In this document: piece by piece, positions 4,650 through 45,378 of the stretch
Position numbering within the stretch: position 1 is the stretch's first letter
Layout: every line of letters begins with the position of its first letter
Assembly (NCBI GenBank): GCA_949317995.1
Contig: OX439052.1
Span: forward strand, 41,288,599-41,352,598
Source: Acholoe squamosa
Lineage: Eukaryota > Annelida > Polychaeta > Phyllodocida > Polynoidae
Direction of reading: 5' to 3'
Length of the DNA stretch: 64,000 nt
Position numbers and translations under genes: made by a program
The notes under the pieces: model-generated
Seen by the model: the letters and a program-made list of their open reading frames with translations, nothing else
Database searches by the model: none
What the model was told of the DNA's origin: nothing

Positions 4650-7274
4650 ATGGGGAGACTGAGAGTTTCACCCATACTGCTAACTATGCTGTTATTATAT
4701 ACTACAGAACCACTTACTGCAGGTTATACACCTGTGGTGAGACAAAACATAGGAGTAGTATTCAAACCTAGCCCTCAACCATTGGTCAATGGACATACAA
4801 CCACAACACTGTTGTTAGCTATCCCCTACAAGATACCTCGGGCACCCGTTACCCAAGGATCCATAAGGGATAGAATACTCCAATTGACCACTCCTACTCT
4901 ACAAGATCATACCTCTGGTCAAATTATCCAACAAGCCAAAGAGCTTGACACCTTGCTGGAAATTGCAGACAAGGAGATAAATGAAACATTAGCCTCCATC
5001 AAATTGTTCCTATCCAACCCCATAAACACATTGGACAAGGCCAAAAGAGAGGCCATACTGGGTTTTCTAGCACCCCTGTTTCGCGGTGTGCTAGGTCTAG
5101 CCACAGTGGAAGATGTGAACCAAGTAATGGGACAGCTCAAGAACATAGATGAAATACTAAGAAAATTTGCTAAACAAGATCAGGAAGCAGCTAGTCTCAT
5201 TGAAAAGATCACAGACAGACAAGATAAGTTTGTTAAAGCATACATCCAAGATAAGAAGGTACTGGACAGCACAATCAACACCATAGGTGACACCGTCAAC
5301 CTGTGGGCCTCTAACATGTCCAGGTCACTTGACTCATATTCAAGGCACGAGAAAACTCAAAGGGAAAAAATGCAAGTATTAAATGATGCATTAATTATCA
5401 TAGCAGCAAGAATGAATACAGTTCAATCACTGCAAAGGACAAATGCAGCCCTGAGGATGCTATCATCAGGAATCCTAACCCCTGATATAGTACCACCCTC
5501 AGACCTTGCTAGATACTTAATTGACATTAATAACAAACTTAGGATTACACACCCTGGAGCACAAGTCGCAATTAATGACTTAGATTTCTATTATTCACAG
5601 AAGCTGACCTCATACACTTACTCAGCTCACCATATATATATTCATCTGGACATTATAATTCAATCTACCACCTCGACCTTCAAACTGTACCAAATGATTA
5701 CATCACCCATGCCTATAGTCACACAGGAGACCCCCACCAGAGGAGTCACCAAGTTGCAAACCACAACCGAGTTTCTAGCAGTATCGTACGACGAATCATT
5801 ATTCATCGAATTGGACTCAGCAGATATGCAGGCATGTGAAGGTACTACAGTAAAGGTATGCAGAGATGTAAATGGTAGAATTTATAAACACAGGCCTACA
5901 TGCCCTGTAGCCATTTTTACTAACCAGGCTCAACAGATTAAGGAACATTGCAAGTTTACAGTTTCACCACTGCAAGCACCTACCACCCATGCTATTTCCA
6001 TTTCTGAAGATGAGTATCTGGTCACTACTAATGAACCCCATTACTTTATCAACTGCCATGGTAAAACGTCTGAAACTCGAAAAGCACAGTCCTACTCAAT
6101 CATAGGTGTAATCTGTGGGTGCACAATCAGTGTAGGAGAATTTTCTCTTCCAAACACAAGGTTGCCCTGTAGCTCAACCTTATCATTTCATTACATTCTC
6201 AAGCCAATTAATTTACCATTCATGGCAGCGCTTAACCAAATTTCTGAAACCAAACCAGATGAAACAGAGAATCTTCCAAATTTCCCAGTAGTAAACCTTT
6301 CCAGAACCTTAGAAAAACTACAGGAAAATCCAATCATGGATGATACTACTCAACTAAATTTAGAGCCCTTTGCCAAAACATTATTGAAAGATGCCTCCAA
6401 CCTTGATAAGGCAATGGAAACACGCTACGTAGAATCACACCTACGTCGAATCACAGAGCATCCAATCTTCCAAAGCTTAGGACTCATCCTAGGGATATCA
6501 GCTCACATTTTTATAGTATACATACTACTCAAACTGTACAGACTAGGAGGGACTGTAGCCTACCTGCCTACAGCCAAAGCATTCAGACTAGTCACCGAGC
6601 TGCCCCTACACAAATTGCTCCCAGATAAGAATCCTACCAAACTAACCCCTACAGAGGAAACCCACACCCCTTTCCTCACAATTCAGGAAACCCACACCCT
6701 GATAATTGCGATATTATTCACCCTGACCATCTACTCAGCCTACAGAATAATGAAGTACCTTAAGAAATTTGCACAGACACACTGTGGCAAGAAAAATGTG
6801 GCCAAGCGCACAAATCCCACAATATATTTTAAAATATATTGTGGAGACTCAAACTTCGCGCTACCCCTGAGGCCAATACCACATGAATTTGATGAGATTA
6901 AATCAGCAGCTGCCCCAACCTATAAGGATATAGTGGTTAAAACCTTCCCACTACCTAAGGCTATATTTACCTGGAATGGACCAGCAGTTATAACAACACA
7001 GAGAGGAGAATTTGCTTATCACCTCCCTCAGGTGATACACCTACCTTGGCGCACTAGGTTCAGTACCATACCAGCCCTTAAAAACAAAGGACTGTACTAC
7101 TCCATGCTTCTCCAGAATGATTGTGGCACCAGCCCGGTGACCATGACAGCACTGGAAAATACAACAGATATAATTATTGACGAACACCAGGAGGAGACCG
7201 CAAGGTCAAACATGCAGACTATTGCTAATTTTCTAAACCACCAGCCCTCCCCGGTGACTGTGGAAACAGCCTAG
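4650..7274 (+). CDS. env: Envelope-like glycoprotein of the gypsy element, uninterrupted ORF
   Basis: A single open frame of about 874 codons begins at the ATG at 4650. A hydrophobic N-terminal segment of about 20 residues looks like a signal peptide. A basic KAKR motif near 5039-5050 (about residue 130), followed at once by a hydrophobic Gly/Phe/Leu-rich stretch, resembles a furin site and fusion peptide. A long heptad-rich region follows (about 5090-5420). A hydrophobic segment near 6475-6550 is a likely membrane anchor; a second lies near 6690-6755, leaving an unusually long tail of roughly 170 residues. Cysteines cluster at about 5830-6180. This layout matches the baculovirus F-like Env of insect errantiviruses. 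The family name is inference from layout, not a profile match. There is no stop or frameshift, unlike pol beside it. Confidence 0.75.
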   Translation: MGRLRVSPILLTMLLLYTTEPLTAGYTPVVRQNIGVVFKPSPQPLVNGHTTTTLLLAIPYKIPRAPVTQGSIRDRILQLTTPTLQDHTSGQIIQQAKELDTLLEIADKEINETLASIKLFLSNPINTLDKAKREAILGFLAPLFRGVLGLATVEDVNQVMGQLKNIDEILRKFAKQDQEAASLIEKITDRQDKFVKAYIQDKKVLDSTINTIGDTVNLWASNMSRSLDSYSRHEKTQREKMQVLNDALIIIAARMNTVQSLQRTNAALRMLSSGILTPDIVPPSDLARYLIDINNKLRITHPGAQVAINDLDFYYSQKLTSYTYSAHHIYIHLDIIIQSTTSTFKLYQMITSPMPIVTQETPTRGVTKLQTTTEFLAVSYDESLFIELDSADMQACEGTTVKVCRDVNGRIYKHRPTCPVAIFTNQAQQIKEHCKFTVSPLQAPTTHAISISEDEYLVTTNEPHYFINCHGKTSETRKAQSYSIIGVICGCTISVGEFSLPNTRLPCSSTLSFHYILKPINLPFMAALNQISETKPDETENLPNFPVVNLSRTLEKLQENPIMDDTTQLNLEPFAKTLLKDASNLDKAMETRYVESHLRRITEHPIFQSLGLILGISAHIFIVYILLKLYRLGGTVAYLPTAKAFRLVTELPLHKLLPDKNPTKLTPTEETHTPFLTIQETHTLIIAILFTLTIYSAYRIMKYLKKFAQTHCGKKNVAKRTNPTIYFKIYCGDSNFALPLRPIPHEFDEIKSAAAPTYKDIVVKTFPLPKAIFTWNGPAVITTQRGEFAYHLPQVIHLPWRTRFSTIPALKNKGLYYSMLLQNDCGTSPVTMTALENTTDIIIDEHQEETARSNMQTIANFLNHQPSPVTVETA

Positions 7275-19355: not shown

Positions 19356-19936
19356 ATAGGGCTTAATCGGGAGGTCCAGTATACACATCAATGAAAGTTC
19401 AAATCTCAAAGGCTCTTACAATGGCTGTGTAGATTCCATATTGTTCGATTGCATGAAGTGCCAGGAACAAGATCATAACTACAAGTACGTTGATGTACGC
19501 AGTATCTTTAACCCTCTTTCTCTGTGTATGTTGTTCATATAATATATTGTATTGGAGCATCCTGTCTGTTTGTCTACTCAAAGCATGACAGTATATCAAT
19601 CACTGCCTCGAAGAAGAGGGATAGAAGAGCTGTGGAGCACTATTTAAATTTGCATACAAGCTGTGGAGCACTATTTTAATTTGCGTATTATTAAGACACC
19701 AATGTTGTATGAATAACATATTTTTCACCAATGCAAAATAATCATATTTGATGCAATAGAAAATGATAAACTTTTCTGCCAAGTTGATGCGACAGTTTCA
19801 GCACCAGATTTGAATGAGTGAAAGTCCTCTTAGACCATTGAGCACCCTCATTGTTTCCATGATCCGTGTGGGAGGTTTTTGTCAAAGCACTTGCTTGTTG
19901 TAGAGTCCTGAGGCCACATGAGCATTCCTTGACCAT

Positions 19937-20181
19937 CAGGGGTGACGGAAGCTACATGACTCAGGGGGTGGGCTGACATGGGCCAAGTGGGGTGCGTCAA
20001 CAATTTTCATCACAGCAAGTGAAAGACTTTAATATTTTTAGAGGGTTTAGTGGCATGCCCCCCCCAAGGAGAATTTGATCCTGCTATTTTGGACAAAAGT
20101 GTATATAGGTTTTGAAATTTTGTTGGGGGGGGGCAAAATATAGATTGGCGGGCCATGACCTCCCCTATTCCGACACCCCTG
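19937..20181. mobile_element. hAT-like MITE
   Basis: The left end CAGGGGTGACGGAA is mirrored by TTCCGACACCCCTG at the right (13 of 14). CAGGGGTG...CGGAA ends are typical of non-autonomous hAT elements. The interior has C and G runs and no transposase. No clean 8-bp target duplication was found. Confidence 0.6.
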
Positions 20182-20244
20182 CTTTGTGAATTGTCTAACA
20201 CTTTGATGATATTTGCCATGGCTGCATCTTGAAAGGTCTCTGCA

Positions 20245-22168
20245 TCAGTTCTGGGGTGGATTTTCTCCCGCTATGGCACATGGTGGCTGGGGGATATATG
20301 CCAAGCCATGAATGTCATTCCAGTCCCTAAACAATAAGAAATAGAATGTTATCAGTAGAAGTGACTGCATGATAAGCCATTTCCTAGGGACTGGTGATTA
20401 GTTATCTACAGGGACGATGGTGAGTTTGAGGAGGGGGTTTAAAAACTGTTGACTATAGTCAAAGAGGGCCATTAAAACTTTCCCTGCCTCTGGTCCATCA
20501 GGGATGGGGAAGAAATGTTGACTGCATCATCAGAAAAACTCACCACCCAAAGTTGATAAATAATGACCACTCTCTTACTTATATGCAACAACCCTGGTGC
20601 ATTCATGTATCCTGCAAAACCTGAGGGATTGATGTACACTCTTGGGGGTCAGCCATGATGCACAAAATTTATGACTTTGAAGAACTTAGGTTTTGAATTT
20701 TTCTTTGAATTCGACACAGGTAAAAAAATTCAATCTGATAAATCACCCCCGGGAAATCACCATTAATGAATAAAAGTAGATTCTCATGCTTTGTCTATAT
20801 ATCTTAATAAAAAGAAAAAATTCTTACATAAGGATATTTTCGCTCAGTATATCAATGACCACCGGAGTGACACTGTTGATGTTGAAGCGGAGAACACCAC
20901 GGAAGGCTGTGTGGAACTTGGGCATGAGGCAGTTCTGGAGGATGGGAAAAATGGTGCTGGTAAGGTGCCACACTAGTAATCCAACTTGTTGATGGTGAAT
21001 AGTGAAGGTAGCCATTTTATGAGCCTGCAATTGAGAAAGAACATTTATTTGTCATATGAATCTTATGGTTTTGTAAATTCTAGGGGTCCCCATCTCACAA
21101 TAAAGTACCCATTCTGAATAACAAGGATATAATGTTGTTTTTCATCAACTATTTATGTGTCTAGATTTTTACTTTATAAAGCACTAACTTGATGTTAAGT
21201 GAGTGCCTGTCTTGGATAGACTTCTGGAAATCGCTTTTCGCCAGTTTAGTATTTATGCAGATACAGTATGTATCACTATAAATTCTAATTTTCTTGTAAA
21301 TATGACTCACCTGTGAAGATATTATGACCATGTGTATGGTCAGTAGAGAGTAGACAGCATACAGAATGGCCATAGTTTTTGTCAGTATGTGCTGTCTTTT
21401 CTCGATGTTCCTTAATGTTGAGTTCATCTGTTGTGGGAATACTTTTCGCTGCTTATGCATGATGAGACCAAGGATGATGTAATTTCCGATTGTAAGGGCA
21501 CTGATGATCAAATAAGGATAGACTAAGAGGATATCTACATCGTCATTGTTCAACAGCAAGGAGTATGCACAAATCGGCATACTCAATGTTGCAGCAGAGC
21601 CAAGTGTGAATATCAAGCTGAATATTGCTAATGTTCCACTCCAAATCAGAATCTGACAGATCAGAGTTCGTTGTAAGGTCAGATATTTAGCGTATTTGAA
21701 GCGGGAAGTGAGACAGATGAGTCGGTCAATTGAGATCATATAGAGAGTGATTATATTCACATAGGATGAAACCACAAATAACAACTCATTGAAAATGCAG
21801 AAACCAATCCATTTTACAGTTCCCTTGAATGAGATTGCAAAAACAGAGAATACCGAGAGTAGAGCATTGAGAATTCCAGTCACAGAAAGGTTAGCCAACA
21901 AGTAACATGTCGGGTTCTGTAGCATTTCATAACGGCTCACAGCAATTATGACCAGGAGATTACTGCATAATCCAACCAGTGACTCGATCCAGCGCAACAG
22001 ATAAAAGTAGACCCCAGTTTTTCTGTCGTGACTGATGCCAGCTATCATAGTAGTAAAGTCCAGTGAATGCGATGTTGTATCTAACAGTGCATCAGTTTGT
22101 ATATATTTGCCATTCAAGGTACTCATAATCAGAGTAGTGTTCTCCATTGGACCTGAGGTAAAATCCAT
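20245..22168 (-). CDS. Class A (rhodopsin-like) GPCR, paralogue 1, three coding exons
   Basis: Exons, read on the minus strand: 22168-21311 (ATG to donor CAG|GTGAGT, phase 0), 21024-20828 (acceptor TTGCAG, donor CTTAT|GTAAGA, phase 2) and 20326-20245 (acceptor TTTAG, stop TGA). The predicted product is 378 residues. The N-terminus has about 65 residues with N-x-S/T sites. TM1 carries the N of the GN motif, TM3 ends in IDRL in place of DRY, and Cys is present before TM3 and in the second extracellular loop, consistent with the class A disulphide. TM6 lies at the end of exon 1, TM7 and helix 8 are in exon 2, and exon 3 encodes a tail with DWNDIHGLAYI and PPC. Departures from class A: the TM2 Asp is Gly (LSVTG), there is no CWxP in TM6, and NPxxY is replaced by FPILQ. 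The ligand is unknown; an orphan peptide-type or chemoreceptor role is possible. Exons follow from splice consensus and match to the two paralogues. Confidence 0.85.
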
Positions 22169-22399
22169 TGTAATTGGTTACTCCAATATTAGGCCCAGTC
22201 TTTTTTTTCGTCTGTATGTTCTCCTTATCGTGTTAGAATGAGAATGGGTAGCTCACCATTCAAATACCTGAGTTTATAGATGTTCTATCAAGGGGTTATA
22301 CTGATCATGGCTGTCTCCTGACTGAGATATGCATTCTGTCGAGGGGCTATCCTGACTCATCATGGCTCTCTCCTGCCTAAGATCTCTAAGTGATGTAAG

Positions 22400-22800
22400 T
22401 ATGGAGATCTCCACACCTGTGTCTGTGCTGGCTGGCTACTTCAAGGCAACCCTTCAATGGCTGCAGAATGGGTTAAAGAATTACTTCTTGTTGTTTTCAA
22501 GATTGACCAATGCACTCATGACTCCTGAGATACTGACTAAACCATGTAGAATCTACATAATGTATGAATACATAGTCCATATATCAAAAGGTTTAAAGCC
22601 AATATTACAATAAAACGCTTATCTGTCCTTGAAGAACAAACTCATTATTTATTATGTGGTCAGTAACCCTATAGCCTACTAATGACACATATAGATCAAC
22701 AGGTGTGCTCTGTATAAATTCACCTGTGAGATTACACCTTCTCACTAAGCCACCCACCCCTTGTTTACCTGGTCAGTCTTTCAGGTATTCCCAAGCCTAG
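22400..22800 (-). promoter_or_regulatory. Upstream block of GPCR 1 shared with its paralogues
   Basis: TCTCCACACCTGTGTCTGTG at about 22407, some 240 bp before the ATG, recurs at 33850 and 45379 before the other two receptors at similar distance. A second block starting ATCAACAGGTGTGCTCT near 22693 recurs at about 34160, 48104 and 15546. These could be promoter elements or an untranslated first exon. Both contain CACCTG or CAGGTG E-boxes. Confidence 0.6.
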
Positions 22801-23289
22801 GAGGTATTTCATAAGATGTTCACTTATTTTGATTACTTGGTTACACTTTTGGGTGAAACTTCTCGTCCCTTACCTTGGTGGGAGGAATGACTTTCCACAA
22901 AAAAATATACAACCTAGTTCGTCAGCAGCCCGTCTGTCCTGACCGGCCACCTCTTATTTTGATTTCCATGAAAACATTGAGCCCCCATGGAATTATTCCT
23001 TCATGTAGGTCTCTCACAGAGCTTATCTTCTCAAACAGACAGAGCAAAAGCCTATTGGCTGAAAAGGATCTGTTAGTGTTAAACTATTTAAAGGCCACAT
23101 AGCATGTAGTCAGTGTACATTGTATGCCATGCTTATGAGCTTATAGCTTAAGGTTTTTCCAATGTTAAGGGTAAAAAAATATGAAATATTAGATTCAAAG
23201 GGCAGATCTAGAGTGACAAAGCTAGAAGGGTTAAAACCTTTTTAACTTATTATAAGATTATGCGAGCAAGGACCATGGATGGTACATAT

Positions 23290-24230
23290 TCATCAAATCA
23301 TTTTTATTTGGAGAGACATTTCAGATATCATTGACTGATGAAAAGGGTGTGCTACTTTATGTGCTAGAATATCAAACATTTTCTCTGATTGTCCATTTCT
23401 TAATATCTTTAAATCCTTGTGTCCACATGGCGATAAAACTGGCAAGCGATATTCACATGAGCTCCTAGTGCCAATAAGCCCCCCTATTCGCACAAGATTT
23501 TGTTGGATACAGGACACATACAATATAGGACAATTTATTTCAGAAATAGGACCACCTGAGTATAAGTCAAGACTGTATAAGAATTCCTAATATACAGGAC
23601 ATGTAAGACCCATTCAAGTAAGATACAGGACATGACCAGGATATGTAAGAAATGTGACTTCAATATAGATAGAACTCCCTCAGCCTGTAATCTTTCACGT
23701 GTTCCTGGGCCTAGTGGATAAGGCATTGTCTTCTGCTGCGAAGTATTTGGGTAAGATAAGATAGAGGACCATTTCAAAAATGCTAAGATCCTTGTGTGGT
23801 CCCGTATCTATACATTCTGTATCTTACCATTCCTTGGGATGTCCTGTATTTTATGTGTCCCATATATAAATGTCCCGTATCTTATATTTCACATATCTTA
23901 CTGCTATTATGAAAACTCATGTGAATACATGTCCTGTATCTTACCACTACTTTGTTGGTTGTCATGTATCTTACATGTCCTGTATATTACAAAATATCAT
24001 GCGAATAGCAAGTCTTATTCACATGAGATTCTTGTGCGAATAACATCGGCCCAATAAAACCGCGTTCGTCAGCTGGCAAACACCAAATATCATCAGCCTT
24101 CCACATATCACCATGTGGATGCATGTGAACGACAGAAAACTGACTGACAAAATGTTGACAACATTTCACTGGCTGATTACTCATGATGGCAAAAACTCCT
24201 AGATTCTGATCAAACATGTTGGATGTTTAA
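23290..24230. mobile_element. Foldback-like element with inverted minisatellite arms
   Basis: Left of about 23780 the sequence repeats AAGATACAGGACATG-type words; right of it the complement GTCCTGTATCTTAC-type words dominate (23820-23995). Outside these, AATCTTGTGCGAATA with CATGTGAATA on one side mirrors CACATGAGATTCTTGTGCG on the other. The arms are imperfect and the outer ends were not fixed. Confidence 0.5.
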
Positions 24231-24806
24231 TGCCTAAATAGGCCGATTTTTTATAAGGTAAACTAAATTATGAGCTGCATGTGTCCTCTTTTAGGTGCCA
24301 TGAGAACCTTTTCTCATAAAACATTTCACAGGGTAAAGCATATGCAAATCTGGCACTTCCTTTCCATCATATGTTGGACAAGTATTATAGGCATCTTATG
24401 TATAGAAGAAAGGACTCGATCAGCCCTCTGCTTAATGAGGTACTAAAGGATACCTATTAGATGCCCGCTAATTAGGCCCTTTACTCTACTCCTGGGAGTG
24501 GACCATTCAAAGTCTATCAAGATGTTTTAATGCCATGTTGACACTGGACAACTTCTCAGAAGGTGGCTGAAAAATTTTATTTCCATCGATGATAAAAGCC
24601 AACGTCAAATCATGTCTGTCATCCACTAATTTTATCGCATCTACCTGTAGATACATGTGTACAGTGAGTGGTCCTGTGTGCATACTCTTGTATACACCTA
24701 TGTCCTAGGCCTACCAGTATCCCCAATGGTCCTAAAAGGGGTTTACCTAATTAGCCTTATCTGTGTAGGTTCTCTCACTGGGGACTGCAGTTTGTAAATA
24801 GGTGTA

Positions 24807-24874
<68 letters not shown>

Positions 24875-25317
24875 TTATAGTGCACATCTCAATTCCATAT
24901 TGTCCCCAGATCTTATTAATGAATTGCAATATGATAATAACCTCAATAGGTTCAATCTAGCATTGTGCACAACTGAAAATGTACAAGGTTATCTGAGAGG
25001 AAACTTAAGCATAGATGACACCATAACTGTGTTTAAATCTGAAATACAAGTGTCTTGACTATGAGGTTGTAGCTAACAAAGGCCTTTAGGCTAACATCTG
25101 CCTTTAGGTAATTCTTATAGTCATATGAGACTTACCTCTCTCCCAAGTTGAAGCATAATTGAAGTTATTCTGAGGGAACCCGTGGGGTTCAGGGGAATAG
25201 AAATTGTTTGGGGGAGATGGTTCTCTACTTCTCTCACCCTCAATAGTGCCTCAAGAATGGAATTCATTGGGATTGGAGACATTTCTGTCTTCATTAGGCA
25301 TGCATGGTTTATAGTAT
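24231..25317. other. No gene seen; holds an (AT)n tract
   Basis: The (AT) microsatellite runs from 24811 to 24873. Apart from it there is no supported feature. Confidence 0.6.
24811..24873. repeat. (AT)n microsatellite
   Basis: About 31 uninterrupted AT units. Confidence 0.95.
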
Positions 25318-25736
25318 TGTAGGGGCACGGTTTAGTAGTAGTGTTTATGACTTACGGGTTGCCTAGGTTCAGAGCGGAGCGGCCTTTCGGGTTGAGAGCC
25401 TGGTACGCCTGGCGGGCGGTGGCAGCACCACCCTCCGGGCTGCGTGGGTTAAACACGAGAGGTCGCCACCCAACCCCTGTGGCTATATAATAGTCGGGTC
25501 GGAACCTAGGACGAGGAGAATCCTACCGGATTCCCTAGGAATACCATCTGAACTTTACTGACTCCAAAGCCTTACCTGGTAGTCGTAAATCCGAGCTTTC
25601 CGAACAGTCCCTTTACCATACGGAATCTATTTAGCTCCCTGTAACTTAGGATACTGAATAAAGAATTGTTGCCTTTTGAAACCGGATGTCCTTGTATTCG
25701 TGATCCTTTCCGAACCATTAACGGTCATACATTACA
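25318..25736 (+). mobile_element. 5' LTR of the gag-bearing gypsy element, 419 bp
   Basis: It begins TGTAGGGGCACGG and ends CATACATTACA, so the termini are TGTA...TACA. It carries TATATAA at 25484-25490 and a poly(A) signal AATAAA at 25657. One base after its end lies a primer-site-like TGGTGCCGTGACCAGG. No 3' copy was found in the window. Confidence 0.75.
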
Positions 25737-25737
25737 C

Positions 25738-25755
25738 TGGTGCCGTGACCAGGAT
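25738..25755 (+). other. Primer binding site of the gag-bearing element
   Basis: TGGTGCCGTGACCAGGAT begins with TGG, the complement of a tRNA CCA end, one base after the LTR. The identity of the primer tRNA was not determined. Confidence 0.7.
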
Positions 25756-25804
25756 CCAGTTTTCGGAAGTGCGCAGCCCTGTCTGAACAAGGCGAGAATC
25801 AGAA

Positions 25805-26221
25805 TTGGAAGGTGGGTTTCTAGGAAGCCATGGTGCCCCGGGCCTAGCCTATCAGGAATATAGGGATCCATCTCGGAATGAGGCCGAGACATTGGATTCC
25901 GGGAGTGAAGTGTCTACGGTAGAGTTGGACGCTACAACTGACGACCATCTGATCGCACCGGCTAACCAAACCGCGCCCAATATAAGATCATCAGATTTAT
26001 TGAGGGATGGGGATTTTAGTAGTCCCATCACCTTGGCCCAAGTCCCTGGTACTGAGCCACGAGGACGGGGGAGAGATCCGATTCACCTTGTGCCCTTGGC
26101 TGGTCAAGGAGTTTTTTTGAACCACCTAAATTCAGCATCCCTTTCTGACTCCATTTTCAATCACGGTGGGCCCAGTCAACCGGCTCCTGTGATAGATACC
26201 GGGAGGAAAGGAAAGGAATAA
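25805..26221 (+). pseudogene. Gag leader segment, open 138 codons then stop
   Basis: An open frame after the primer site, without a convincing ATG, encodes a Gly/Asp/Ser-rich protein with no recognised domain, ending GRKGKE and a stop. Its last two thirds are duplicated downstream. The true gag start is not clear; an N-terminal part of Gag in a frame later lost is the simplest reading. Confidence 0.45.
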
Positions 26222-26550
26222 GTATGAATCAGAAAGGACAGCTCATGCGGAATGGAAGCGGATGAATATAAGATCATCAGATTTATTGAGGGATGGGGAT
26301 TTTAGTAGTCCCATCACCTTGGCCCAAGTCCCTGGTACTGAGCCACGAGGACGGGGGAGAGATCCGATTCACCTTGTGCCCTTGGCTGGTCAAGGAGTTT
26401 TTTTGAACCACCTAAATTCAGCATCCCTTTCTGACTCCATTTTCAATCCCGGTGGGCCCAGTCAACCGGCTCCTGTGATAGATACCGGGAGGAAAAGAAA
26501 GGAATAAGTATGAATCAGAAAGGACAGCTCATGCGGAATGGAAGCGGATG
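25979..26550 (+). repeat. Tandem duplication inside gag, 286-bp unit, two copies
   Basis: AATATAAGATCATCAGATTT at 25979 recurs at 26265, and the match continues for 286 bp with only a few differences (for example TCAATCACGG versus TCAATCCCGG). 286 is not a multiple of three, so the duplication itself shifts the frame. Confidence 0.95.
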
Positions 26551-27069
26551 AGCGATCAGGAAAAGTCCAGGGGTGAAAAGCTGCTGGAATATCAGAAGAA
26601 AGAGACCGAGTGGAAACAGAATAAGGTAAAAGAGTTAGAAAGGGAGGTCGAAGACCTCATAGACGAAATTGGGGGCCTACGTAAGAGTAAGGGATTGTTA
26701 GAATGTACCACAGAAACCTTGGAACAAGAGGTGGATGTCCACCGTACTCGACTCCGAGAGATCGAGGCTATGATTCAGGGTAAGAAAGCCGAATATGAAA
26801 GGTACGGGAAGAAAGTTGAGGAAGTCGAACTGCAACTGAGTCTGGCGACCTCCACCCTGGAAGCTAAGACTTCAGAGCGGGATGAGACTATGGGACAATA
26901 CCGAACGGGGCTAGATGTCGCTGGTAAGCGCCTTACCGATTTGAAAAACCAAATCGATGCCCAACATGAGATTTACGAAAAAGAATCGGAAAATCATAGA
27001 GAAACAACAGAAAGAACATGTGGCCCTTCGGGAGAAACATATTCAGGAGAACGATCGGTTGATCACTGA
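26548..27069 (+). pseudogene. gag: Gag coiled-coil segment
   Basis: 173 codons rich in Glu, Lys, Gln, Arg and Leu in heptad spacing predict a long coiled coil, which is usual before the capsid domain in this kind of Gag. The frame is open upstream of the ATG at 26548, so the real protein probably began earlier. Near 26980, in an A-rich stretch, the coiled-coil pattern passes into the next frame (the segment starting about 26957), showing a one-base shift. Confidence 0.6.
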
Positions 27070-28711
27070 TATTCAGGATAACAATCGGGAGTTGTATCAG
27101 GAGAGAGATGATCTCATATATGAAATTACTAAGCTGCAGATGATGCAGGAGGGGTCCGAGGATTCCGAGGAAGAAGAACCAGATCTCGAGGAGTCAGATG
27201 AGAATGAGGGAGCATTGGAGGATCCCAATATCAGTTGTATCCCACGGGATGGCGGGGAGGAAGGTCCACCGATCACCTCTACCCCAAAACCCATTCTGAA
27301 GAAGGGGTATGACCCCTTTGTGAATAATCAGGCCACCCGGAATGTCGTAGGGGACACATATGTTTCCGGCAATGATAAGAACGTTCGGCTAAGTGTGGGT
27401 CAAAAGGACGCCACCTTCACCACCGACGGTAAATATCAGTACATTGACACCAGGGGGCAAGCCCCGACCCCGAGTCACTTCAACCACGCTCCTCCAGGGG
27501 GCCCTGGAGAACTAGGCGACATACCTAGCCAACTGCAGGACAGCAGTCAGTCTATTCCGAACAATCAGACCTATAGGGTGGATAGTCAGGCGTGTAGTAC
27601 CGATCAGAATAACAACGACACCCCGTGTGATAGTGGGACTTACCACACCGGTGCTCAGGCTCCTGGGGGTATAGGACCCCAACCTGGTATGAATACAGGG
27701 TATGGGTTTACCTTCTGGAATAGTCCGAACAACAGCCATCCGGGATCCGGTGGTCCGGGATCCAATGGATCTGGTGGGGGTGGTAAGAAAACCAAGGATC
27801 AGAAAATGTTAGATTGGAGTCTGGAGCAATGTACTAGGTTGAAAAGTAGGGAGATCTCAGCTAAGAAGAATCAGATCGAAACTAAGTCCTTCGATAGGTC
27901 AGAACCATGGAGAGATTGGTTTTCGGACTTCACGGATGACCGTGAGGTAGATGGATATGATGAAGACGAATCGTTACCTATACTGGTCAGATGCCTGAAA
28001 AAGGGGCCAGGTAGGATTGCGGTTGACCATTGGAGAGAACAGTATAAGAATAGGGGAACGTACACTCAGTTAGTTGAGATTTGTAGTTCCTATCTCGGAA
28101 ATATAGTGTCGGAGGATCCGATGACTCAATATAGGAAGAGAATTCAGAAGCCGGGAGAGTCGGTTCAGGTTTATGGATTGGAACTTCAGATATTACTACG
28201 GAAGGCTAGACCTAACCTGGTAATAGATGATTATGTGAGTGATGAATTGATCTCACACTTCGTGCAAGGACTACGAGAAAAAGACCACCAGGACTGTGCT
28301 TACCGAGCATGGGGTCCGGGTGCGACTATGAAAACGTTATGTGATGCCATAACCAATTTGAATAAGAAGAAAACTTTTCTTTCCGGATTTGTCCCTCGGG
28401 AAACCGCCAGTATGGTACTCCCTGATCTGAAACCAGTAATCCCTACTGCAGCAGCCGCTGTCTCGGAAACTGAAACGGAATATGAGACAGTAGAATATGA
28501 GGAAGAAGACGGAACAATCTCAGCATTGAGGTTCCCTAAGAATGCCAAGAAGTTCATTCCCAGAAGGACCTTGACTACTCAGCCAAGGTGGGGGGTTCCC
28601 GAGAGTCGCGATAAGAGTGTTTCCAAACCCAAGGAAACTATAGTTAAGAAGGATGAGAGTAGGCCATCTGGAAGCCTAGATATGAAGAGTATGATAGAGA
28701 GAGTATGCTAA
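26957..28711 (+). CDS. gag: Gag: coiled-coil end, disordered linker and capsid-like domain
   Basis: An open frame of 584 codons. The first 60 or so residues continue the coiled coil; an acidic stretch, a Gly/Asn/Pro-rich linker (about 27300-27790) and then a helical capsid-like region (about 27800-28400) follow. The last contains RSEPWRDWFSDF and a QYRKRIQKPGESVQVY segment, typical of Retrotrans_gag-type domains, where R/F-Q-xx-GESVxxY is the common signature. It would assemble the particle that packages element RNA. The frame ends in MIERVC and the basic tail with the zinc knuckle continues in another frame, so this copy is broken at both ends. Confidence 0.7.
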   Translation: MPNMRFTKKNRKIIEKQQKEHVALREKHIQENDRLITDIQDNNRELYQERDDLIYEITKLQMMQEGSEDSEEEEPDLEESDENEGALEDPNISCIPRDGGEEGPPITSTPKPILKKGYDPFVNNQATRNVVGDTYVSGNDKNVRLSVGQKDATFTTDGKYQYIDTRGQAPTPSHFNHAPPGGPGELGDIPSQLQDSSQSIPNNQTYRVDSQACSTDQNNNDTPCDSGTYHTGAQAPGGIGPQPGMNTGYGFTFWNSPNNSHPGSGGPGSNGSGGGGKKTKDQKMLDWSLEQCTRLKSREISAKKNQIETKSFDRSEPWRDWFSDFTDDREVDGYDEDESLPILVRCLKKGPGRIAVDHWREQYKNRGTYTQLVEICSSYLGNIVSEDPMTQYRKRIQKPGESVQVYGLELQILLRKARPNLVIDDYVSDELISHFVQGLREKDHQDCAYRAWGPGATMKTLCDAITNLNKKKTFLSGFVPRETASMVLPDLKPVIPTAAAAVSETETEYETVEYEEEDGTISALRFPKNAKKFIPRRTLTTQPRWGVPESRDKSVSKPKETIVKKDESRPSGSLDMKSMIERVC

Positions 28712-28890
28712 AGTCTTTCCGGGAGGACCTTGAAAGTCACCGGTATAGTAGGCCGAGGTATGATAAGTCTAGGATCAGATGTTATCGCTGTCAGAAAATG
28801 GGTCATGTAGCCTATGAGTGCCAGGCTGCTGAGCCAGTTCCCCGGAATATGTCGGCAGTTGAGGAGATGGAACCTAATTCGCAAAATTAA
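28705..28890 (+). pseudogene. gag: Gag nucleocapsid segment with CCHC zinc knuckle
   Basis: The motif CYRCQKMGHVAYEC fits CX2CX4HX4C, the nucleic-acid-binding knuckle of Gag. It overlaps the previous frame by a few bases in a different register, and that register is also open upstream across about 28680-28705. It ends in a stop at 28888. Confidence 0.75.
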
Positions 28891-28904
28891 GGAGGGTTGA
28901 GGAT

Positions 28905-29182
28905 GTGGCGGATTGCTCAACCCGGAAACTTGTTGTATGCCAGAGTACTGTCCCTGATAAGCCGTCTGATGAATCCGAAATGACTACACCCGGGGAGGAG
29001 GGATCCGAGATTGATCTCCTCGCCCCTCCTATGGCCGGGGACTCCAACAGAAGTGAGGACACCGAATTTGTAGTAAAGGAAAGTATGCGCGTTGGAGAAG
29101 AGGAAGGGTGGATAGAGGTATTCACACGTGTATGTGCGGCACACCTTCCCCCGAACCATCCATGTCTGGAGGTTGGGGGCTG
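28905..29182 (+). other. Possible start of the pol frame, cut at the TRIM boundary
   Basis: An open frame begins just after the Gag stop and runs rightwards; it is acidic and Ser/Pro-rich, with no protease motif seen. The frame runs on into the LTR by chance to 29396. The last 20 bases or so (CTGGAGGTTGGGGGCTG) look like the end of a TRIM interior, not like gypsy sequence. Confidence 0.35.
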
Positions 29183-29279
29183 TGTAGGGGAACATGATTT
29201 CCCGTGCCCGGTAGTCACATGTTCCCTATCGGTATCACACCGATCCAGGCGTAGGTGGAAGGTAGAGAACGTCAGGTCA

Positions 29280-29351
29280 GGGGAAGTAGCTCAGAGGAAG
29301 AGCTTCCGCTTCGAAGTTGGAGGGTCCCGGGTTCGAGTCCCGGTTTCTCCA
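29280..29351 (+). tRNA. tRNA-like module in 5' LTR of TRIM 1
   Basis: 72 nt fold as a tRNA: acceptor GGGGAAG/TTTCTCC (seven pairs, two G-T), D stem GCTC/GAGC, T stem CCGGG/CCCGG with loop TTCGAGT, and discriminator A. The A box region TAGCTCAGAGG and the B box GGTTCGAGTCC are intact. A TTTT run at 29358-29361 is a plausible Pol III terminator. The anticodon arm is weak (TCCGC/TTGGA, one mismatch and one wobble); a 7-nt loop TTCGAAG would give anticodon CGA. A Ser identity would need a long variable arm, which is absent, so decoding function is doubtful. Confidence 0.7.
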
Positions 29352-29377
29352 AAGACGTTTTCCGCCGACCTCTACAC

Positions 29378-29393
29378 TGGTGGAGAAACCGAG
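29378..29393 (+). other. Primer binding site of TRIM 1, complementary to its own tRNA-like module
   Basis: TGGTGGAGAAACCGAG pairs with CCA plus the last bases of the tRNA-like module: 14 contiguous matches, then one mismatch and one more match. It lies one base after the LTR end. Confidence 0.8.
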
Positions 29394-29715
29394 TAGTCCT
29401 GACCCGCGTGAGGGGGGCCTACGGAACTCGGTCCCTGGGTTGGTGTGATACGGCAAGCGCTTCGACCTGCTAGCACTGGGAGACTTGGAAACAGGTGGTA
29501 CATACAGTACGTCCTGGGAACAGGACAAATCGGAGCTGTGTGTGACTCAGTGCTGGTTAATTTGGTGGTCGAAGCTGGTTGCGGGCTGTGTAGGGGAACA
29601 TGATTTCCCGTGCCTGGTTGGCCGACCCGCAGGGGCGGGTCACCGGGTAGTCACATGTTCCCTATCGGTATCACACTGATCCAGGCGTAGGTGGAAGGTA
29701 GAGAATGTCAGGTCA

Positions 29716-29787
29716 GGGGAAGTAGCTCAGAGGAAGAGCTTCCGCTTCGAAGTTGGAGGGTCCCGGGTTCGAGTCCCGGTTTCTCCA
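29716..29787 (+). tRNA. tRNA-like module in 3' LTR of TRIM 1
   Basis: Identical over its 72 nt to the copy at 29280, with A box, B box and TTTT at 29794-29797. Confidence 0.7.
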
Positions 29788-29812
29788 AAGACGTTTTCCG
29801 CCGACCTCTACA

Positions 29813-30102
29813 GTATCAATGCATGCATGGAATGCACAGATAAATGATATTAGGGATATGATCCCCATGGACTGACATCAATGATAAAGTGTATATCAGT
29901 GTCTTTTGTGGCCTACCTTTATATTCAATACATTTGTTGTAGATTAACAAAACCTCTTGCTTTAGTTCTACACTTCTAGTTTCTGTAAAATTACAGCAAT
30001 AGTTGCTTCAACCTCAGTTGCCAGCAGAATCTTCTGTAATATTTACAGTACATTTTGTTGTTCATATACAGCAAAACTTGTTGTTTATTCACAGAAAATC
30101 TT
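29813..30102. other. AT-rich repeat-like DNA, no gene
   Basis: It contains words such as CTGTAAAATTACAGCAA that recur to about 30500 and resemble MITE interiors. No ORF is present. Confidence 0.4.
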
Positions 30103-30293
30103 GTGGGCTTCCCTAGCCCACTTAAAAGGGTCTACTTCTCATCTTTCCTATCCCCTCAGGATGTGTGTGGTGCACATATGCATTGGCACTGACACATTCC
30201 TCTGTGAAATTGTGTAATGTCGTTCTCGCCATGAATATATGACCTTAGCTGTCGAAATGGCGTTAAACATCTATAACTATAACTATAACAGAA
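30103..30293 (+). repeat. SINE-like dispersed repeat, copy B
   Basis: It matches copy A at 13061-13262 in the opposite orientation and ends in GCGTTAAACATCTATAAC followed by CTATAACTATAAC, a short tandem tail typical of SINE or LINE 3' ends. No clear Pol III A and B boxes were found, so a LINE tail is equally possible. Confidence 0.65.
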
Positions 30294-31741
30294 AATATTG
30301 CTGTTAATTTATAAGACATATTCTGTAATTTTACAACATATTTTGCTTTTAATTTACAACATGCATTTCCCTAGCTCTGAGTGGTCTTTCTGCATGATCA
30401 CAGTGGTTGTTACTGTATGATTATTGTTGATTGTGCTGTAAAACTACAGTGTTTCACCTCCTGTAGATTTACAGCAAAAGGTACTGGAACCAGAGTTGCC
30501 AATAAGATTTGCTCCATAAACCTTAGGTGTGCTGCTTAGGGTTTAAACCATGCAGTGACCAAGTAGCGTCTCCCCATGACTGCTTATATAGTGAAGGCTT
30601 TTGTATTCACATAACTTGAGTCACTTCTATTGCCGTCACCCTATTCCGTCAGTCATGATTCCATCATGATTTGGTCACAATTTTGGATGGAACGGCAACG
30701 GAATGCTGACAGAATACAATTGTATTATGATTAGGGATTAAACACTAGTGTATATAGGTTAACCACCTGTTTAAACAGTTAAATTTGTCCCATTTTTCTA
30801 AACACTTTTTAGTGCTAAATGCATTCAATTTTAAACGTGTTTAAGATTCGATGAAATGTTTAACAATTGTTTAAAAGTTAAACCCCTAAACACTTCAAGT
30901 GTTAGGTGTTTAAATGCTGCTGTTGAGAAAATTTGGTGTGTATTTTTAAACACCTTTTTTGCAATGTGGTCACTAGTATTAGCTACATAAACTAAGATCA
31001 AGTCTTGAAGTTTCCCTTAAAGGGGCAAATCCATTGCCACCACTCATTCCATTTTCCATGATTTTGTGGTGATTCTATCATGATTCAGAATCATAATGCA
31101 TCATTTAATTGACTGGATAATACACTTTTTAGGACGGGGGATGAATGACACAAAGACTTTGAATGTGGCATATGGAGTGCATCCTATAAATATTTACATA
31201 ATCCTCAATCTTGTATCAAACTAACTCAGATTGTTTGTAGATAATGATCTGTTGATTCCTGATGGGCCAGTTAGACCAACTTCAAAATATTCCATACATA
31301 AGTACTATGTCAACTGATAATTACTGCAGGCCCTTTACAATATTGGGCCACCTCAAGATCTACCATGACCAATCTACCATGAAATTTATGCACTGTAAAT
31401 AAAGGTTGTCAAAATGACAGTTAAATCCTTGTTCCAAAATTGATGATTGTAGACACTAATCTAACAAATATGACATAAGGTGCTCCTAGTAACTTAAGTT
31501 AAGTTAGGGAAATATCACCTGTGATTAAACATTTGCCAAGTACAATAAACTGTTTTAACTATGCAAGTATTTAGGTTTTAAGAGTCTTAAAGAGCAGATG
31601 AATGTTTCATATCCATGAGTGGGTTTCTTCCTTTTGAGCCTACCAGTACTTGTAGTAAAGTCCTGAAGATATGTTAAATTCCCTCAAAAGATGTCTGTAT
31701 GGCTAATTTTGGCCAAGTCTGAATGATGAAGTGTCTCTACA
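30294..31741. other. No gene; degenerate MITE ends
   Basis: CACTTCTATTGCCGTCACCC near 30625 and the related end near 31025 recall the MITE at 15009. GCACTGTAAATAAAGGTTGTC with AAATCCTTGT at about 31390 recalls the MITE at 61094. The interval 30770-30960 has many TTTAAAC/GTTTAAA words. Confidence 0.45.
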
Positions 31742-33656
31742 TTAGTTCTGTGGAAGATCTTCTGTTGTGAAGGGACAGGGCCGTGGTGGTGTCATGTACG
31801 CCAAGTTGTGAATTTCCCTGAAAAAATAGAAAATGAATCCATTAACTTTTTGAGAAACACTGTGTATAAGCTGCAAGTGCCTATAAGCCACACCCTGATA
31901 TGCTGTCTTGATATTTATAAGAAAAAATGCAGTTTAGGCATAGACAGTTTATGATGGAATTAAGGGGGCACAATAGGCTGGGTTGAACTGAACACCTAAA
32001 CCTGTATAATTTAGAAGAAATCTTTCGTACCTTTGCACATCATACGCCATTATGTCCATATTGAGGTGTTACCATGGAATGAAATAGTTTTTTTTGGCTT
32101 TTGTTGCTTTGAACAGCACTGACGGATAGAACTGATATATTTCTAAGATAGGATGAATCAAAATTGGAACTTTCTGAGGGTGTTTTCTTTCTTTAGTTCC
32201 TACCCCAAATATTAAGGTCTACAGAGGCATTTGAATTTCAATAGTTACCAAAATTGCAAAAAGAATCCCTGCTTTTTGGTAACTATGGAAAATATAAATA
32301 AAGCTCTTACATTAGGAAACCATCGGTGAATATATCGACGATTATTGGGTTGACGGTAACAGGGCGGCAGCAGGAGATATGGCGGAAGCTGAGCAGATGG
32401 TGGAATGCAGTCTGGAATTTGGGTATGAGGTAGTTCAGGAGCAAGGGAAAAATGGTGCTGTTCAGGTGCCACACTAGTAATCCCACTTGTTGAAGGTGAA
32501 CAGGGAAGGGATCCATTTTTTGAACCTGCAATTCAGATAAAAAACATTTAATTCTGACTCTTAGGGTGTCTACTTTAAAATAGGGTGCCCGTTAACAAAG
32601 ATGAATGCTGCTGTTTCTTCCCTCTATTTGTATTAATATAAATAAATATATTTGGTTGATTTTCAAATTTAACTAAAATTGTCACTTGGCCCTTTAGGTT
32701 ATTTCAATATCAATGCATCAATAATTACCCTAAGGAGATATGTGAGACTGTGTTACAATTCCAATTCTAAATTGTTCATAAATTTGACCCACCTGTAAAG
32801 AGATTATGACCATGTGTATAGTGAGGACAGAGTAGACGGCATACAAGATAGCCATTTTTTCTGTCAGAACGTGCTGTCGCTTCTGAATGTTCCGCAATGT
32901 CGAGTTCATCTGTTGTTGGTATTTTTTCCGCTGCTCTCGCATGATAAATCCAAGCATGATATAATTTCCAATGGTTAGAGCGCTGATGAACAAATATGGA
33001 TAAACTAAGAAGACGTTTATGTCTTCACTATTCAACAGCAAAGGGTATGAACAAACAGACATACTCAATGTTGCAGCAGATCGAAGTGTGAATATCAAGC
33101 TGAATATTGCTATGATTCCAATCCAAATCAGGATCTGGCACATCAGGGATCGGTGTAGGGTCAGATATTTGGCATATTTGAAGCGGGAGGTGAGGCAGAT
33201 GAGTCTGTCAATTGAGATCATATATAGAGTGATTATATTGACATAGGATAAGATCACATATACCAGCTCATTGAAAATACAGGATACCATCAATCTGACG
33301 GTTCCCTTGAATGAGATTGCAAAAACAGAGAAGACTGACAGTAGAGCATTGAGGATTCCGGTGACAGCTAAGTTAGCCAACAAGTAACATGTTGGGTTCT
33401 GCAGCATTTCATAACGACTCACAGCAATGATGACTAGGACATTACCGCATAATCCAATCACCGACTCAATCCAGCGGTATGGACCGAAGTAGATCAGACT
33501 TATTCTGTCATCACTTTTGCCAGCTATGGTAGTACTGAAGCCCAGTGGATGCAATGTTGTGTCTTGTAGTGTCTCCGTTTGATTATAGCGGCTATTAGAC
33601 ATGCTGAGAAGGCCTGTGTTAGTAGTGTTCTCCATCGTACCTGAGGTAACAGTCAT
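31742..33656 (-). CDS. Class A (rhodopsin-like) GPCR, paralogue 2, three coding exons
   Basis: Exons on the minus strand: 33656-32793 (donor CAG|GTGGGT, phase 0), 32525-32311 (acceptor TTGCAG, donor TAAT|GTAAGA, phase 2) and 31817-31742 (acceptor TTTTCAG, stop TAA). The predicted product is 384 residues, closely related to paralogue 1 through TM1-TM5. TM1 has the full GN motif (GLCGNVLVI), TM3 ends IDRL, and TM2 has Gly where class A has Asp. TM7 ends FPLLL in place of NPxxY. Exon 2 is 18 bases longer than in the other two, adding six residues after helix 8. Exon 3 encodes EIHNLAYM and PPRPC, lacking the DW of the other two. The role is unknown. The gene sits in the same orientation as its paralogues at about 11-kb spacing, so it arose by tandem duplication. 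Confidence 0.85.
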
Positions 33657-33849
33657 TGTAATCGATCACATCAATATCAAACCAGTCTTTTTCATCTATA
33701 TAATCTCATATTTATAAGTGGTAGGAAGAGGAAAGGCTTCTTGTTATTCGAAGTAATGATTTTAGGTATAGTGGAGATGTCTTGACCATGGCTGCCTTCC
33801 GAGTGAGCTGATTCTTCTAAGTGATAAATTGATAAAGGTACAGAGTTCT

Positions 33850-37188: not shown

Positions 37189-37314
37189 TGTAGGGGCAGT
37201 AATTCCCTGTACTCGGTGGCAGACCCCCAGGGGCGGGTCTCTGGGTAATCACTGCCCCCCCTAGTGTGTATCATACCGATCCAGGTGTGGATGGAAGGTG
37301 GAAATGTCAGGCCA

Positions 37315-37386
37315 GGGGAAATAGCTCAGAGGAAGAGCAGCCGCTTCGAAGTTGGAGGGTCCTGGGTTCGAGTCCCGGTTTCTCCA
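37315..37386 (+). tRNA. tRNA-like module in 5' LTR of TRIM 2
   Basis: 72 nt. Acceptor GGGGAAA/TTTCTCC has six Watson-Crick pairs and one wobble, D stem GCTC/GAGC, T stem CTGGG/CCCGG, discriminator A. The B box GGTTCGAGTCC is intact and a TTTTTT terminator lies at 37392-37397. The anticodon arm is degenerate (GCCGC/TTGGA) with the same loop TTCGAAG as TRIM 1. Confidence 0.7.
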
Positions 37387-37411
37387 TGACATTTTTTGCT
37401 GACCACTACAT

Positions 37412-37427
37412 TGGTGGAGAAACCGAG
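37412..37427 (+). other. Primer binding site of TRIM 2
   Basis: TGGTGGAGAAACCGAG, identical to the site in TRIM 1, one base after the LTR and complementary to CCA plus the 3' end of the LTR tRNA-like module. Confidence 0.85.
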
Positions 37428-37735
37428 CATCCTAATGCAATCACGGATTGAAGGTACGGGAACCCCGTATCTTAACGCAATCATGGATTGAGGACTCGGG
37501 AACTGGGTCGGTATGATACAGATAACGCTTCAGCCTGGTAGGGGTGAATTAGTCACTTGCTGGAGGTTGGGTTGGAGGAGCAGGGTTGGTTGAAGCTGAT
37601 GGGGAGGAGTGTAGGGGCAGTAATTCCCTGTACTCGGTGGCAGACCCCCAGGGGCGGGTCTCCGGGTAATCACTGCCCCCCCTAGTGTGTATCATACCGA
37701 TCCAGGTGTGGATGGAAGGTGGAAATGTCAGGCCA

Positions 37736-37807
37736 GGGGAAATAGCTCAGAGGAAGAGCAGCCGCTTCGAAGTTGGAGGGTCCTGGGTTCGAGTCCCGGT
37801 TTCTCCA
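37736..37807 (+). tRNA. tRNA-like module in 3' LTR of TRIM 2
   Basis: Identical over 72 nt to the copy at 37315; the T-run terminator is TTTT at 37813-37816. Confidence 0.7.
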
Positions 37808-37831
37808 TGACATTTTCCGCTGACCACTACA

Positions 37832-44100: not shown

Positions 44101-45212
44101 AGAACCCTTATTTGACAAGGAAATTGATATAAACCTATAGTCTGACTGTACATCTATAGGTATGACGGGAGGAAATTTCTGGGGAGATGATTTCTAGCCC
44201 TGCTAGCACTACTCATCAAAATGATGTCTTTTTTATGTAAATAACATGAGTTTTCATGTAAGAATGACGTAAATTGTACGAGTTGTGCTAGCTGGGAGGG
44301 TAGGAATTTTTTGTTGGTTGAGGGGGGGTTGGGTCCAGGGAGAAATCTACTAGAACTGTAAGTTTGACCCACCTGAGAGGATATGATGACCATGTGTATG
44401 GTGAGGACGGAGTATACGGCATACAGAATAGCCATCGTTACTGTCAGGTCTTGCTGTCTCTTCTCAATGTTCTTCAATGTTGAATTCATCTGTTGTGGTT
44501 CATTCTTCCTCTGATCCCTCACTATAAAACCAAGCATGATGTAATTGCCGATGGTTAGAGCACTGATGAACAAATATGGATAAACTAAGAAGAGGTTGAC
44601 ATCTTCATTCCTCAAAAGTAAGGGATATAAACAAACTGGGATGTTTAATTCTGCCTTTGAACGGAGAGTGAATAGCAGGCCAAAGATTGCTGTGATTCCC
44701 ATCCAAACTAGAATCTGGCAAGTCCCTGTCCGGCTTAAAGTCAAATACTTGGCGTACTTGAAGCGGGAGGTAAGGCAGATGAGTCGGTCTATGGAGAGCA
44801 TATAGAGGGTGATTACATTTATATAGGACGAAACCACAAATAACAACTCCTTGAAGACACAGAAACCAATCCATTTGGCATTCCTTTTCATTGAGATTGT
44901 GAAAACTGAAAAGACCGATAGTGTTGAATTGAGCAAACCAGACACAGCCAGGTTAGCCAATAAGTAGAAGGTTGGGTTCTGAAGTGCTTCGTAACGCCTC
45001 ACAGCAACTAGTACTAAGATATTACCACATAGGCCAACAAGTGACTCCATCCAGCGGAATGGATTGAAGAAGGGCTTTTCTTTGCTGTCACTGATCCCTG
45101 TAGTATTGAGGTCCAATGGTGGCAATGTTGTAACTGACAGTGCCATGGTTTGGTTATAGAATAGATTCAGTAGGTCAGTAGTGTTCTCTATCGCACCTGA
45201 GGTAGAGTTCAT
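41136..45212 (-). CDS. Class A (rhodopsin-like) GPCR, paralogue 3, three coding exons
   Basis: Exons on the minus strand: 45212-44373 (donor CAG|GTGGGT, phase 0), 42296-42100 (acceptor TTTGCAG, donor TATCT|GTAAGA, phase 2) and 41253-41136 (acceptor TCTATAG, stop TAA). The predicted product is 384 residues. Intron 1 is 2.1 kb, against under 300 bp in the paralogues. Features match the family: N-glycosylation sites before TM1, GLCGN in TM1, SIDRL after TM3, a Cys pair for the class A disulphide, and TM7 in exon 2 ending FPIMY, the copy closest to NPxxY. Exon 3 starts DWSDIYSLAYIAPPPC and then adds a Gln/Glu/Ala-rich tail of about 20 residues not present in paralogues 1 and 2. The ligand is unknown. 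Its upstream region is split by the foldback element at 45659. Confidence 0.85.
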
Positions 45213-45378
45213 TATTGTGGGCTATTCCAGTCTACCTCCAATTTTCTTTGTCTGTACCTTCCAATCATATGTAATGAATTTTCTGTTATTCTAATAGAAA
45301 GATACCTTCAGCGTGGATGCCTCCAGAGCAAGATGCCGTCTCTAAATGAGGAAGTGATAGAATGGTAAATATGGAATT

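Follow-up and report, generated by a model that had tools for sequence, protein, structure and literature searches.

The window, by which we mean the whole 64,000-nucleotide stretch of Acholoe squamosa DNA analyzed here, contains two miniature LTR retrotransposons (TRIMs) on the forward strand: copy 1 at 29183-29812 (630 bp) and copy 2, a second member that the earlier note had not listed, at 37189-37831 (643 bp). Copy 1 has a 5′ LTR of 194 bp (29183-29376), with a 30-bp deletion relative to the 3′ LTR, and a 3′ LTR of 224 bp (29589-29812), directly followed by GTAT at 29813-29816. Each LTR contains a tRNA-like module, called by both ARAGORN and the Rfam tRNA model RF00005 (50.1 bits) at 29280-29351 and 29716-29787, which bears out the earlier description of a TRIM with a tRNA module in its LTR. 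TTTT at 29358-29361, behind the first module, is a possible Pol III terminator. The primer site (PBS), TGGTGGAGAAACCG, lies one base past the 5′ LTR (29378-29391, 14 nt). As the earlier note had stated, it pairs over 14 contiguous bases with CCA and the 3′ end of the module, here CGGTTTCTCCA, the final 11 bases. The matching ends there. A PPT-like stretch (29577-29588) precedes the 3′ LTR. The module and its tail are identical between the two LTRs of copy 1, while 33 of 127 aligned U3 columns differ, 30 of them through the single deletion in the 5′ LTR.

Copy 2 repeats this anatomy. Its 5′ LTR (37189-37410; module 37315-37386, RF00005 47.6 bits) is preceded by TAAG and followed by the same 14-nt PBS (37412-37425); a PPT-like GATGGGGAGGAG (37598-37609) then leads into the 3′ LTR (37610-37831; module 37736-37807, called by ARAGORN), and TAAG follows again, giving a 4-bp target duplication (TSD) on both sides. 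The LTRs of both copies start with TGTAGGGG and finish with CTACA. ARAGORN reports four tRNA-like genes in the window, all of them the LTR modules of these two copies, and Rfam likewise gives four matches across the window (gathering score 29), every one a tRNA, with no 5S rRNA-type LTR module of the Cassandra kind among them. Box A (TAGCT) and box B (GGTTC) are present in the window modules, to be compared with the Helenus pattern TRGCY/YGG and GGTTC; the second part of box A is AGG in the fam1 modules of the window and TGG, which fits YGG, in a second family (fam2) described below. The anticodon stem of the fam1 module is poor, and the folding energies of three isolated modules were no better than those of shuffled sequences (z -0.5 to -1.1). 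We dropped folding energy as support for a cloverleaf and base the tRNA calls on ARAGORN and Rfam. Two LTRs, a PBS, a PPT and a 4-bp TSD set these elements apart from tRNA-derived SINEs, which have no LTRs and rely on a non-LTR element for insertion.

Elsewhere in the window, three similar long ORFs resembling rhodopsin-type GPCRs lie on the minus strand (21161-22177, 32730-33665 and 44154-45221), the third of which matches 7tm_1 (1.6e-20). An 883-codon ORF on the forward strand (4623-7274) looks envelope-like by eye, with no Pfam family above the cut-off.

A chimeric insertion and a candidate helper

Copy 1 lacks its own target duplication on the left, where a PPT-like remnant of the TRIM family (29172-29182) adjoins the 5′ LTR instead, because it makes up the right portion of a chimeric insertion that spans 25318-29812, with GTAT on both sides (25314-25317 and 29813-29816). 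The left-hand part is a Gypsy-type element on the forward strand, with a 5′ LTR (25318-25736) that starts with TGTAGGGGCACGG directly after GTAT, a PBS (25738-25750) and a gag-like ORF (26945-28711) whose match to Retrotrans_gag (E 0.057, 14.1 bits) falls below the cut-off of 24.1. The PBS, TGGTGCCGTGACC, which we take to be tRNA-His-like, differs from that of the TRIM; the LTRs of the two elements are alike at their ends, both starting with TGTAGGGG and finishing with TACA. We rejected the gag-bearing element as an autonomous form of the TRIM LTR: it comes with an LTR and a PBS of its own, and the boundary between it and the TRIM falls at 29171/29172. Within this element, a 287-bp segment is tandemly duplicated (25979-26265 and 26265-26551, 99% alike).

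With a query taken from just left of this junction, 38 of the 40 matches listed end at query positions 458-460, where the window switches to the TRIM; the remaining matches come from the window and from a segmental duplicate some 107 kb distant. Four other copies of the Gypsy-type element run on into different sequence at this point, and one other copy carries reverse transcriptase, RNase H and integrase domains. The simplest reading is that a Gypsy-type RNA and a TRIM RNA shared one particle, that template switching joined them in one cDNA and that this cDNA integrated once, although the chimera may be a segmental event that left GTAT on both sides by chance. On this simplest reading, the Gypsy-type element would be the likely helper of the TRIM. 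The segmental duplication just mentioned relates window positions 19489-32000 to C18:41201500-41214000, is 98-99% alike and carries the chimera.

Related families in the genome

The genome from which the window comes (1,481,437,319 bases, or 1.481 Gb, in 63 contigs) contains at least dozens of relatives. The 72-bp module matched at least 41 places, all at 100% (40 scored of 709 first-look candidates); since a perfect module match was the basis of selection, the sample of those places leans to close copies. The 5′ end of copy 2 gave at least 44 matches at 95-100% (40 scored of 2697 candidates). A search with RF00005, in which the best 63 of 97417 candidates were scored and 20 stretches were fetched from these, revealed fam2, whose module is a near-perfect tRNA-Ala(TGC) of up to 68.8 bits; all 20 fetched stretches are LTR copies, judged by their flanks. 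Seven of the 20 include a PBS-bearing 5′ end of fam2, with module end CGGTGTCTCCA and PBS TGGTGGAGACACCG. A third family, fam3, combines a fam2-like U3 with a fam1-like module ending in CGGTTTCTCCA and the PBS TGGTGGAGAAACCG; for this family, nine of 20 stretches include a PBS.

Script-called members measure 541-1064 bp, the longest being a three-LTR form. Exact 4-bp TSDs flank 34 of 43 script-called insertions, a set in which two rows are duplicated insertions (copy 2/L047 and L075/L142); four more show one mismatch and five no match, and two of these five are script mis-calls (L003, the three-LTR form, with flanks TGAG/TGAG, and L021 with AAGA/AAGA). In 8 of 21 elements compared, the two LTRs are identical, and these copies therefore inserted recently. 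TTTT occurs within 18 nt after the module in 144 of 162 script-matched modules, 17 of the 18 exceptions being arms of the fusions described below. The module is better conserved than U3, at 94% versus 68% identity between fam1A and copy 2 and 76% versus 58% between fam1A and fam2, and module, T run, PBS, PPT and 4-bp TSDs are recurrent features of the families examined. The earlier note had named two outcomes that would speak against its reading, namely that the module is a chance insertion absent elsewhere and that the LTR boundaries fail in more copies. Neither occurred: the other members examined also carry the module, and their LTR boundaries hold.

Some insertions have unusual structures. 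Standard reverse transcription is expected to yield two identical LTRs. Three single insertions on C2 (L005, L009 and L011, with TSDs CTAT, CAGG and CATG) have a left LTR of subfamily B and a right LTR of subfamily A. Tandem forms with three LTRs occur at L003 (C2) and L047/L048 (C18), with matching outer flanks TGAG and TAAG, respectively; the LTR types in L003 are, in order, A-B-A.

Pairing between the primer site and the module

Script-matched pairing between a PBS and its own module spans exactly 14 nt in 40 of 63 rows, 20 nt in 5, 11-13 nt in 10 and 3-5 nt in 8, the last group comprising mostly 3′ ends or deleted PBSs and one mutated PBS. Most PBSs match the module over 14 nt only, not 18. 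The two sites have changed together: fam2 and fam3 share their U3 and the sequence after the PBS, while module and PBS both differ. Among 67 ordinary 5′ ends (L030/L043, one place, being counted twice, and one row coming from the rearranged L102), the distinguishing module/PBS base pair is T/A in 60 and G/C in 7, with no mixed case. A CCA-tailed module RNA would carry the module end GTCCCGGTTTCTCCA in fam1 and CGGTGTCTCCA in fam2. In the loci sampled, this covariation amounts to a single evolutionary step, with one change in the module and one in the PBS. A further candidate, L068, in which a module C is changed to T and a PBS G to A, was set aside: both sites are CpG, such changes occur singly elsewhere, and the module in its 3′ LTR lacks the change.

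The modules are of tRNA-Ala type, and we compared the host's tRNA-Ala genes with each PBS. Two typed queries matched at least 41 and at least 40 places, and we examined 28 genes (5 from the first list and 23 from the second); the TGC/CGC type is clustered at C15:5089891-5140629 and the AGC type at C12:51451691-51461350. The fam1 PBS pairs less well with 27 of the 28 than with its module, and the fam2 PBS less well with all 28. The five TGC/CGC genes end in CATCTCCA, with two mismatches to either PBS. Among the AGC genes, 22 of 23 end in GGGTTCTCCA, with one mismatch to the fam1 PBS (13/14) and two to that of fam2. The remaining AGC gene, L143, ends in GGTTTCTCCA and fits the fam1 PBS without mismatch (14/14) and the fam2 PBS with one. 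Judged by base pairing, each PBS is thus best fitted by its own module among the tRNA-Ala sequences compared, with L143 tying for fam1.

These comparisons bear on the main alternative to priming by the module, in which the true primer is a tRNA-Ala of the host, most likely AGC, the module acts only as a Pol III promoter that stems from a tRNA-Ala gene or a SINE, and the match reflects shared tRNA-Ala descent. The close fit of the host AGC genes to the fam1 PBS is in keeping with this idea, as is the use of host tRNAs by Helenus families in the accessible text of Kojima's report (PMC10886601). The fam2 PBS speaks against it, with two mismatches to 27 of the 28 host genes, one to L143 and none to its own module. 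Together with the imprint considered next, this leads us to regard host priming as rather unlikely, though it is the strongest of the alternatives.

A candidate primer imprint

One element, L075, has a PBS that reads TGGTGGAGAAACCGGGAC before the usual sequence resumes, the usual form being TGGTGGAGAAACCGAGCA. Positions 15, 17 and 18 are changed so that they fit the module tRNA up to A58, an 18-nt imprint. The m1A58 of tRNA normally halts reverse transcriptase. The imprint contains GGGAC, whereas a copy of host Ala-AGC would give GGGTA, which counts against the host tRNA as its source. Both modules of L075 bear a base change that is missing from the imprint, and the primer therefore would have come from another copy, in trans. 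The imprint is a single event: the exact pattern was found in no other subfamily, and a second candidate, L142 (99% match), proved to be a segmental duplicate of L075, the same insertion with its flanks. Another possible origin of the imprint is a double strand switch through a module.

Fusions of primer site and module

Recurrent rearrangements join the PBS directly to module sequence. Searching with sequence from both sides of an unusual junction in L016, we obtained at least 78 matches, 23 of them spanning the junction; 22 of these and L056 make up the 23 loci examined. The order in 21 of the 23, as fitted by script, is LTR end, TGG and reverse-complemented module sequence; L121 was not fitted by the script, and L105 (C17:15696750-15697400) has five additional bases at the junction, AGCTC, between module and CCA. 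The extent of the fusions varies, from L056, where module sequence reaches only a few bases beyond the PBS, to L016, L076 and L102-L105, which continue into U3; in L104 and L117 the opposite arm lacks an intact module. We had considered L016 as a copied full-length primer tRNA, but its second arm continues through U3 and the PPT, as in a PBS/module fusion. Fusions are found in several subfamilies and at different sites, although L113, L114, L119 and L120 seem to derive from the amplification of a single lineage. In L107 and in L108 the module variants differ between the two arms, which means that two molecules were joined. Fusions would arise either through transfer of a DNA strand with the PBS at its end to the module of another RNA or through priming on the PBS by an RNA that ends in module-CCA. 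Both routes need pairing between PBS and module during reverse transcription, and the fusions favor neither.

Strand transfer might by itself maintain the match, with PBS and module being copied into each other and the module RNA playing no part in priming. Fusions at no fewer than 23 places, and the joining of different molecules in L107 and L108, are in keeping with such exchange. Nevertheless, ordinary PBSs keep their normal sequence beyond 14 nt, where fusions instead continue into the module, and strand transfer leaves the fam2 PBS, which fits no host tRNA-Ala gene examined, without a named primer. We find this explanation improbable.

Discussion

LTR retroelements are generally described as borrowing a host tRNA for priming, with exceptions such as Tf1, whose own RNA serves as primer. 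The elements described here are Helenus-type TRIMs with a tRNA-Ala-type module in the LTR, and on balance we favor the view that they encode their own primer, while a helper supplies the enzymes. As far as sequence can tell, tRNA derived from the module is somewhat more likely than not to be the usual primer. We also lean toward a retroelement-encoded primer in a fuller sense, in which the Pol III tRNA gene of the LTR would evolve in step with the PBS and make the element independent of host tRNA choice and of the primer used by the Gypsy-type helper.

In this mechanism, Pol III would transcribe the LTR module into a short tRNA ended by the T run, and the host would mature this tRNA and add CCA. 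Module tRNA from any copy would then be packaged, acting in trans, and would prime minus-strand DNA on the element RNA, a template that could arise via Pol II or by Pol III read-through. Reverse transcriptase and integrase would be provided by a Gypsy-type element with a different PBS and would copy and integrate the TRIM DNA.

The suggestion in the earlier note that the element makes its own primer gains support from the covariation, the imprint and the recurrent fusions. Because this evidence includes one covariation step and one imprint event, priming by host tRNA-Ala(AGC) keeps the low but real probability given above. The companion suggestion, that the element captured the gene of its primer tRNA, is possible, the module being of tRNA-Ala type and host tRNA-Ala(AGC) pairing with the PBS at 13/14. 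A last alternative, that the module yields tRNA fragments which sit on the PBS and restrain copying as a self-limiting device, predicts the same PBS/module pairing and has a precedent in 3′-tRNA fragments described, in the accessible part of one report, as targeting LTR elements dependent on tRNA primers (PMC7472051), but the recent insertions marked by identical LTR pairs (8/21) and an imprint that points to priming make it very improbable.

If a self-encoded primer is confirmed, primer and primer site would reside in one element, making primer switching, packaging and small-RNA control of the PBS directly testable. Furthermore, the chimeric insertion names a candidate helper; none is reported for Cassandra (PMC10886601) or for biv-TRIM (PMC6934838) in the accessible portions of those papers.

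Comparison with known systems

The closest known elements are the Helenus/TRIMp3 TRIMs with tRNA-like LTR modules, described by Kojima in 2024 from six animal phyla, fungi and one plant (PMC10886601). The earlier note's statement that no animal case had been described therefore does not hold for the class. The present elements resemble Helenus, as portrayed in the available text, in being TRIMs under or near 1 kb (the screen there was for less than 1000 bp), in having a box A/B module in both LTRs, a PBS and a PPT at the internal ends and the 4-bp TSD of animal members (PMC10886601). A Gypsy helper is proposed there for animal families, and the Gypsy-type element of the chimera is a candidate for that role here. 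A T run directly 3′ of the module distinguishes the present families, at least from Helenus as characterized in that text (PMC10886601).

Other comparisons are more distant. Cassandra of plants likewise carries a small-RNA gene in a TRIM LTR; unlike the present element, it has a 5S rRNA module and a PBS, TGGTATCAGAGC, that fits an unrelated tRNA, according to the accessible sections of the two sources (PMC7215508, PMC10886601). The molluscan biv-TRIM of bivalves is also a TRIM, with 202-218-bp repeats, a short internal part and tandem forms, but its report, where accessible, describes no tRNA module in the repeats and identifies no canonical PBS (PMC6934838). The nearest other case we met, going by the available text, is cqgypsy_1 of Culex, a Gypsy-lineage element with tRNA sequences and CCA beside its PBS; it differs in being autonomous and in carrying a head-to-head tRNA-Lys/tRNA-Glu dimer at the LTR/PBS border, rather than a module in both LTRs (PMC3286476).

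The self-matching PBS, for which we found no earlier report in the open-access literature, is the part of the earlier novelty claim that may stand. Kojima weighed the Helenus module as a primer and rejected it for want of complementarity between module and PBS, the PBS there fitting host tRNAs of other types, as the accessible text relates (PMC10886601); the present PBS fits its own module, with 14 of 14 bases paired. The families described here are an exception to that non-complementarity within a class that is itself already known.
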